64,000 bases of DNA from Chitinophagaceae bacterium. Its GTDB lineage: Bacteria > Bacteroidota > Bacteroidia > Chitinophagales > Chitinophagaceae. Below the pieces are notes generated by a model. That model did not search any database. It was not told the origin of the DNA and worked only from the letters and a program-made list of their open reading frames with translations. The stretch's first letter is position 1; each line of letters begins with the position of its first letter. Position numbers and translations under genes: made by a program. The DNA is taken from contig JAQBNK010000038.1 of NCBI GenBank assembly GCA_028288595.1, positions 1 to 64,000 on the forward strand. The letters run 5' to 3'. Positions 13,322 through 13,705 of the stretch are shown here, piece by piece.

Positions 13322-13489
13322 AAGAATGAGTTAATCATACGGAAGCAATCGTTAGAGAGGAAAAAGAATCGTTAGACGCACATTCGAAAAAAGTTAAGCT
13401 GTGATAACCAGCGCAAAACCGAGTTTATAACTCTTTCATATGGCAAGCAATCGTTAGACGCCCGCTGTTTTTACAGGGGGCTTTTTTTT
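13322..13489 (+). ncRNA. Putative small RNA with repeated AATCGTTAGACGC motif
   Basis: A candidate transcript of about 170 nt runs from just after the -7 box to an intrinsic terminator. It has no ORF of useful length. It carries the word AATCGTTAG three times (13347, 13367, 13449), the last two extended to AATCGTTAGACGC; the third overlaps the start of the terminator stem. It is not recognisable to me as 6S, tmRNA, RNase P or SRP RNA. The 5' end is inferred from the -7 box. Because no gene lies upstream on this strand for more than 2.6 kb, the terminator needs another explanation, and a small RNA is the simplest. Confidence 0.5.
13460..13489 (+). terminator. Strong intrinsic terminator of the putative small RNA
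   Basis: A GC-rich 9-bp stem with one mismatch (GCCCGCTGT / ACAGGGGGC), a TTTT loop and a run of eight T residues. This is a textbook rho-independent terminator on the plus strand. Confidence 0.85.
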
Positions 13490-13542
13490 GTACAAGCGCC
13501 GTGAAGTTAGATTACAAATATTTAAAACAGAAATTTTTCACA

Positions 13543-13576
13543 AAAAAAATAAAAGCCACTAACAATTGTTAGCGGC
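13543..13576 (-). terminator. Intrinsic terminator of the 14-codon ORF unit
   Basis: An 11-bp self-complementary stem (GCCGCTAACAA paired with TTGTTAGTGGC, one mismatch, no real loop) followed on the minus strand by TTTTATTTTTTTTG. The palindrome is at 13555-13576 and the T-rich tail at 13543-13554. It ends whatever is transcribed from 13690 downward. Confidence 0.75.
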
Positions 13577-13619
13577 TCCCTGGTTTTACCAGCAGATTAT
13601 TTTTAATGGGGTGGCCCGG

Positions 13620-13664
13620 TTAGGCGATACTAACCGAAGGCTTCCATGAATGATCTGTAGACAT
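13620..13664 (-). CDS. 14-residue ORF with strong ribosome binding site
   Basis: ATG at 13664 opens a frame encoding MSTDHSWKPSVSIA and stops with TAA. Five bases in front of it is AAAAGGAGGT, an almost perfect anti-anti-Shine-Dalgarno match, which is rare in Bacteroidota where most genes lack one. The stop codon lies inside a perfect 7-bp hairpin (CGGTTAG / CTAACCG, 13617-13636). A 4-bp CTGG/CCAG stem follows and then a terminator. The unit looks like a small mRNA or a structured RNA with a leader-peptide-like ORF. I do not recognise the peptide; the W-K-P core recalls some peptide precursors, but no modifying enzyme is nearby. Confidence 0.5.
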   Translation of the reverse strand: MSTDHSWKPSVSIA

Positions 13665-13697
13665 GAATACCTCCTTTTCTTTGGTGAATTATAGCTA

Positions 13698-13705
13698 TAA
13701 AGATA
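13698..13705 (-). promoter_or_regulatory. Candidate -7 box for the 14-codon ORF unit
   Basis: TATCTTTA on the minus strand matches TAnnTTTG at five of six fixed bases and lies about 34 bp from the ATG. This would put the transcription start near 13690 and the ribosome binding site about 15 nt into the RNA. No convincing -33 element is seen. Confidence 0.35.

Follow-up and report, generated by a model that had tools for sequence, protein, structure and literature searches.

A conserved two-fold RNA element of Chitinophagaceae with an extended Shine-Dalgarno sequence: a candidate decoy or sensor of ribosomes with an exposed 16S rRNA tail

Among the closest described relatives of the element reported here is the rpsU mRNA of Bacteroidia, which encodes bS21. 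In Flavobacterium johnsoniae, the anti-Shine-Dalgarno (anti-SD) sequence of the 16S rRNA is held by bS21, bS18 and bS6. Ribosomes that lack bS21 select mRNAs with an extended Shine-Dalgarno sequence (SD) and initiate faster on the extended-SD rpsU mRNA (PMC9976891). The synthesis of bS21 in Bacteroidia is autoregulated via an extended SD that is read by bS21-lacking ribosomes, and the same work provides a mark of -13 kcal/mol for such pairing (McNutt et al. 2023, PMC9976891). Chitinophaga and Niastella species are listed among the SD-scarce organisms with an intact CCUCC (PMC10783764).

We analysed a stretch of Chitinophagaceae DNA of 64,000 nucleotides (the window) and describe an RNA gene on its minus strand that stands alone, measures about 145 nt and is delimited by a Bacteroidota-type -7 box and a terminator (Table 1). 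A first-pass annotation had noted a 14-codon open reading frame (ORF) with a near-perfect SD and a terminator of its own, and all of these sequence features are present on the minus strand. The SD was said to lie five bases before the ATG, which is correct when counted from GGAGG (the spacing from GGT is 4 nt), and the stop codon does lie in a hairpin, within the stem GGTTAG/CTAACC. Beyond that description, the complementarity to 16S rRNA runs for 14 nt through the spacer up to the ATG, a second fold hides the SD and the AUG, and the element is a conserved gene of its own. Our best reading, to which we would give somewhat less than an even chance, is that the element is a separate mini-mRNA which acts in trans, reacts to the 16S rRNA 3' tail and serves as a decoy or sensor for anti-SD-exposed ribosomes.

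Table 1. Position of the element and its features in the window
Feature	Position	Strand	Basis
Whole unit	13705-13542	-	
Probable -7 promoter box TATCTTTA (Bacteroidota type TAnnTTTG)	13698..13705	-	position-wise conservation in 89 homologues and sequence, suggestive of promoter function
Extended SD AAAAGGAGGTATTC, perfect 14-nt complement of the 16S rRNA 3' tail GAAUACCUCCUUUU; contains AAAAGGAGGT (13678-13669), 5' of the ATG	13665..13678	-	nine 16S tails, duplex energy, invariant columns
14-codon ORF MSTDHSWKPSVSIA and stop TAA; ATG (13664-13662) directly after the SD, TAA at 13622-13620	13620..13664	-	13-15 codon ORF in all full copies; tree-aware stop tests
CLOSED hairpin, hides SD and start codon: GGAGGT (13674-13669) with GCCTTC (13641-13636), TTCATG (13667-13662) with CATGGA (13648-13643)	13636..13674	-	MFE folds; pairing retained across 90 copies
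OPEN fold, frees SD and start codon: CAGAT (13657-13653) with ATCTG (13597-13593), TGG (13646-13644) with CCA (13609-13607), GCC..CGGTTAG (13641-13630) with CTAACCGGGC (13623-13614)	13593..13657	-	tree-aware covariation at two pairs; pair counts
Small hairpin CTGG-TAAAA-CCAG; in homologues position kept, sequence variable	13580..13592	-	fold and alignment
Intrinsic terminator, 13-bp stem with T-run, ends the unit at 13542	13542..13580	-	terminator scan; found in 85/89 homologues

The homologues (n = 89) have in common the sequence TAnnTTTA at positions -12 to -5 upstream of TCACC. As this is close to TAnnTTTG, the consensus of the Bacteroidota -7 element, it probably functions as a promoter. 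The best -7 box in the genome studied here is located 6 nt further upstream of TCACC than in most homologues. With the terminator, the predicted transcript is about 144 nt long, and judging from these two signals the element would be expressed as a free-standing unit. A putative sRNA on the plus strand (13434-13489, with ATCGTTAGA repeats at 13348, 13368 and 13450) converges with the element. It is a multi-copy conserved element in its own right: of 59 relatives, 25 contain related stretches, and many of these genomes have several, arranged in tandem groups with spacings of a few hundred bases. In other genomes, no such stretch was found close to the element described here.

Two alternative folds are conserved in the RNA. 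In the CLOSED fold, which is predicted by minimum free energy (MFE) folding, GGAGGU pairs with RCCUUC and UUCAUG pairs with CAUGGA, so that the SD and the AUG are buried in the ORF. Complementarity for this fold is retained in nearly all copies: 97.5% of the cells of its main helix pair across 90 copies, and the 3' arm varies yet still pairs. Covariation cannot be shown for this helix because its 5' arm is invariant. In the OPEN fold, CAGAU pairs with AUCUG, UGGA pairs with UCCA, and a bulged helix of ten pairs forms around the stop codon. When covariation was compared with a null evolved on the tree, the only non-adjacent column pairs with E < 0.1 were 65-72 and 54-82, which both belong to the OPEN fold, and the remaining low-E pairs were neighbouring columns. 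In the OPEN fold 91.9% of cells pair, as opposed to 47.5% or less in slid versions, and 11 pairs have changed on both sides. The copies in a second family of the order maintain the OPEN helix by compensating changes. The arm CAUGGA..CCUUC is common to the two folds, which are therefore mutually exclusive, and the terminator is involved in neither. The cost of keeping the SD free varies from 0.1 to 7.8 kcal/mol, with a mean of 2.8 kcal/mol. The duplex with the 16S tail yields far more energy than this, so that tail binding could drive the switch from one fold to the other.

A different function can be envisaged for such a structure, namely that of a base-pairing sRNA gated by translation, in which reading of the mini-ORF exposes or hides a segment (for example the UCUACAGAU loop or the AAAAUAAUCUG stretch) that acts on mRNAs elsewhere. 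A free-standing RNA with its own terminator, the conservation of the unpaired or loop stretches UCUA and AAAAUA and selection on translation rather than on the peptide (see below) would all be in agreement with this. However, the loop pairs with AAUCUG in the OPEN fold, which accounts for much of the conservation of both without any target, and the long 16S complement would need a separate reason. We consider a gated sRNA rather unlikely.

The 16S 3' tail (GGAAUACCUCCUUUUUA) is identical in all nine genomes of the order examined; these are other genomes, as no 16S match was obtained in the source genome. The complementarity, perfect over 14 nt, increases to 15 nt in copies with a fifth A. In 95 copies, the predicted duplex energies extend from -18.3 to -23.1 kcal/mol, with a mean of -22.7 kcal/mol, and lie within the bounds used for rpsU-type extended SDs, namely predicted pairing below -13 kcal/mol over at least 9 bp (here 14 bp). 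The rpsU SDs of the family fall between about -15 and -18 kcal/mol in most genes and are typically close to -16 kcal/mol, making the SD of the element about 6 kcal/mol stronger. The sequence AAAAGGAGGTAT and the ATG are invariant in 90 of 90 aligned copies, and the spacer TATTC is invariant to the same degree as GGAGG. Complementarity to 16S rRNA would explain the invariance of the spacer, but the CLOSED hairpin constrains the same bases, and there are thus two possible causes.

The pattern AAGGAGG-N4-8-ATG has 34 matches in the genome and its reversed version has 46. With no enrichment, SDs are not in general use here, and an SD of such strength is unusual. The remark in the first-pass annotation that this SD is striking for an SD-poor lineage is borne out and the site is far from a chance occurrence, as the pattern is unenriched and yet the site is conserved over 34 genera. 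In four genomes (G004, G059, G106 and G061), AAAGGAGGTATT is found solely in the element and, in antisense orientation, in the 16S gene. We also considered a wider extended-SD regulon and rejected it, since the extra AAAGGAGGTATT sites, found in two genomes of Chitinophaga/Niastella type, resemble stretches inside coding regions and for the most part lack an ATG at the spacing expected of an SD. A separate case is GAAAAGGAGGTATTGCCTCCTTTTTTT in one further genome (G198, locus L380, around position 1500), a terminator-like hairpin with an arm that is an anti-SD complement and with no ATG after it.

Pairing that continues through position -1 may exceed the length that fits a normal initiation complex, and would favour capture over efficient initiation. 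By SD geometry, a 14-nt complement is longer than initiation would seem to need. This and the perfect match up to the very base before the AUG could also be the mark of an antisense RNA directed at the 3' end of (pre-)16S rRNA, with tail trimming or bS21 docking as its possible object and the ORF as a by-product or a clearing device. The complement, however, stops at the AUG, and the kept frame and stop would be left unexplained, which makes an antisense function improbable.

The ORF of 13-15 codons is intact in every full copy, those of the second family included. If alignment columns are evolved independently on the tree, 19 of the 90 copies are expected to acquire a premature stop and 8 to be left without a stop. 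If base pairs are evolved jointly, the expectation is 18 premature and 8 lost stops. Neither was observed in a single copy. In 1000 runs of the joint model each of these zeros occurred at a frequency of 0.001, and both together never occurred. Lineages in which the usual stop was lost terminate one codon earlier. At the same time, parsimony assigns 101, 85 and 80 changes to codon positions 1, 2 and 3, respectively, which is no third-position excess, and where codon 13 changes, codon 15 changes with it so that the base pair between them is preserved. Genus g5 has lost 1 nt after the ATG and gained 1 nt at either of two sites further on, so that the end stays in frame and the middle of the peptide changes from STDxSW to SLQxIHG. 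This genus (loci L110, L114, L119, L121, L126 and L131) is the only lineage in which the middle of the ORF is frame-shifted, and L126 regains the usual frame through a different 1-nt gain.

Stops and frame are kept and third positions show no excess of change. Selection has hence acted on translation and its stop, and little or not at all on the peptide sequence; it seems to be translation, rather than the peptide, that matters. A functional micropeptide of 13-15 residues (xSTDxSWxPSVxIA), produced when anti-SD-exposed ribosomes appear, would agree with the retention of ORF, start and stop in all full copies, with in-frame indels that preserve the frame and with the recurrent S-W-x-P-S-V motif. 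The even spread of changes over codon positions, the mirroring of codons 13 and 15, the shifted middle in genus g5 and the divergent ends (SVTF, TNG, LALG and SKF) all speak against it, and we doubt strongly that the peptide is the functional product. The micropeptide reading proposed in the first-pass annotation is thus weakened: frame, start and stop are under selection, but third positions are not faster and the g5 middle is frame-shifted. Folds and ORF are both conserved; we encountered neither a loss of the ORF with the folds kept nor a general lack of conservation, the two outcomes which that annotation had named as adverse.

A DNA search gave strong matches in nine other genera of Chitinophagaceae. 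With a covariance model, the element was found in 97 of 394 genomes of the family and in 34 of 101 genera, almost always as a single copy, and a second covariance model found it also in another family of the same order (genomes G061, G461 and G515). The filters of these searches were strict, so that a genome without a match may still have the element. Outside the order no copy was found; when the second model was run on a sample of 395 genomes from across the class, it gave just two family members, one of them the source genome. A pattern scan of named genomes returned 114 stretches, and the listed titles were nearly all Chitinophagaceae, Chitinophagales or member genera such as Chitinophaga, Niastella, Segetibacter, Pinibacter, Puia and Ferruginibacter. 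Since only about a quarter of the Chitinophagaceae genomes have the element, it does not belong to the core machinery of ribosome control. Genome G251 has two intact copies on one strand about 950 bp apart (locus L092, 4978-5131 and 5933-6091), and genome G423 has a degenerate second copy beside the intact one (locus L148, 4957-5103), in which the hairpin part is kept and the SD and ATG are lost.

The plasmids and phages searched do not carry the element, and three viral contigs with the SD string contain unrelated frames; an origin from such replicons was rejected. A known RNA family was likewise rejected, as no Rfam 15 family reached its curated threshold, either in the window or at any of ten homologous loci. 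No description of the element was found in the literature searched, which consisted of open-licence papers, so that an earlier report elsewhere is possible.

At about 95 loci, most with some 5 kb on each side, neighbours are common only within genera, apart from isolated cases, and their strands also vary between genera. The lack of conserved neighbours implies that the element acts in trans, if it acts at all. The leader-peptide attenuator proposed in the first-pass annotation, considered here as one that acts in cis on a downstream gene, can point to the short ORF, the strong SD, the terminator and a 529-aa gene that begins on the same strand about 350 bp downstream in this genome, but is extremely improbable and was rejected because neighbours and strands differ among genera with no conserved gene downstream, the 529-aa gene family is upstream in genus g130, and 85 of 89 copies end in a terminator, which takes no part in the two folds.

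That the RNA engages the anti-SD is favoured by the 14-nt complement of 16S rRNA, the lack of SD enrichment elsewhere in the genome, the mutually exclusive folds, the frame kept with no third-position excess and the element's own transcription unit. Of the functions suggested in the first-pass annotation, which included an RNA that titrates ribosomes or the anti-SD, it is this one that has the best support, as the complement lies inside a conserved two-fold structure. By default, the RNA would be mainly CLOSED. Ordinary Bacteroidia ribosomes, with the anti-SD held in the bS21/bS18/bS6 pocket, would not respond to it. The 14-nt extended SD would be bound by a 30S subunit whose tail is free, be it bS21-lacking, immature or otherwise altered. 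The displaced anti-SD arm would then drop into the downstream OPEN hairpin, and capture and refolding would reinforce each other. The ribosome would then read 13-15 codons up to the stop inside the OPEN hairpin and be released. Most likely, the element would thereby act as a sink and sensor for anti-SD-exposed ribosomes, for which it would compete with the rpsU mRNA, and in this way set the threshold of bS21 autoregulation. A bolder and more doubtful version, perhaps worth a third of our belief, is that the 16S tail is the ligand of a new class of riboregulator: its binding would displace the CLOSED hairpin and drive refolding, the RNA would measure as well as capture anti-SD-exposed ribosomes, and translating a peptide of irrelevant sequence would be part of the reset.

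A strong rpsU SD is found in 11 of 14 family genomes with the element and in 7 of 9 without it, and the element is present without a strong rpsU SD in G044 and G061. This independence argues against a tight link with rpsU. The possibility that the element replaces a missing rpsU SD was rejected on the same grounds. Furthermore, as a single-copy gene the element may yield too little RNA for a stoichiometric decoy unless expression is strong.

Like the rpsU mRNA, the element belongs to a lineage without SD use and has an SD that is extended well past GGAGG, with predicted pairing stronger than -13 kcal/mol. Unlike it, the element consists of a free-standing ORF of 13-15 codons rather than a gene for bS21 or another protein, has no conserved gene downstream and would act, if at all, in trans; its SD, stronger by the 6 kcal/mol given above, extends to the ATG and is hidden in an alternative fold. 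Dual-function small RNAs such as SgrS/SgrT are small RNAs with a short ORF, and the element resembles them in being, by prediction, a short free-standing transcript with a terminator and a small ORF. It differs from them in that its peptide sequence is not conserved as such, its main conserved part complements rRNA rather than mRNA, and two folds surround the SD. Riboswitches and RNA thermometers can control translation through a hairpin that masks the SD, and here, too, two exclusive folds hide or expose the SD and start codon; the element, however, has no downstream gene, and its likely trigger is the 16S tail rather than a metabolite or heat. OLE RNA, which is reported to have bS21 in its complex (PMC12054373), would be a similar case if the proposed link is correct, since both would then be RNAs outside the ribosome with a connection to bS21. 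OLE RNA is about 600 nt long and mostly from Bacillota, and the Rfam scan shows no relation between the two.

The element is thus a second and stronger predicted extended-SD transcript, in another order and dozens of genera, with switchable folds and no protein product to explain it. Its ability to fold so as to hide or show the 16S match suggests a role in sensing or trapping ribosomes of a special kind. If this is true, cells that have abandoned SD-led initiation still use the anti-SD to signal the state of their ribosomes to a small RNA that reads it, which is directly testable in cultured hosts (Chitinophaga, Niastella and Segetibacter species). In summary, the known core, shared with rpsU, is an extended SD for anti-SD-exposed ribosomes, and what is new is its switchable, free-standing and product-free form.
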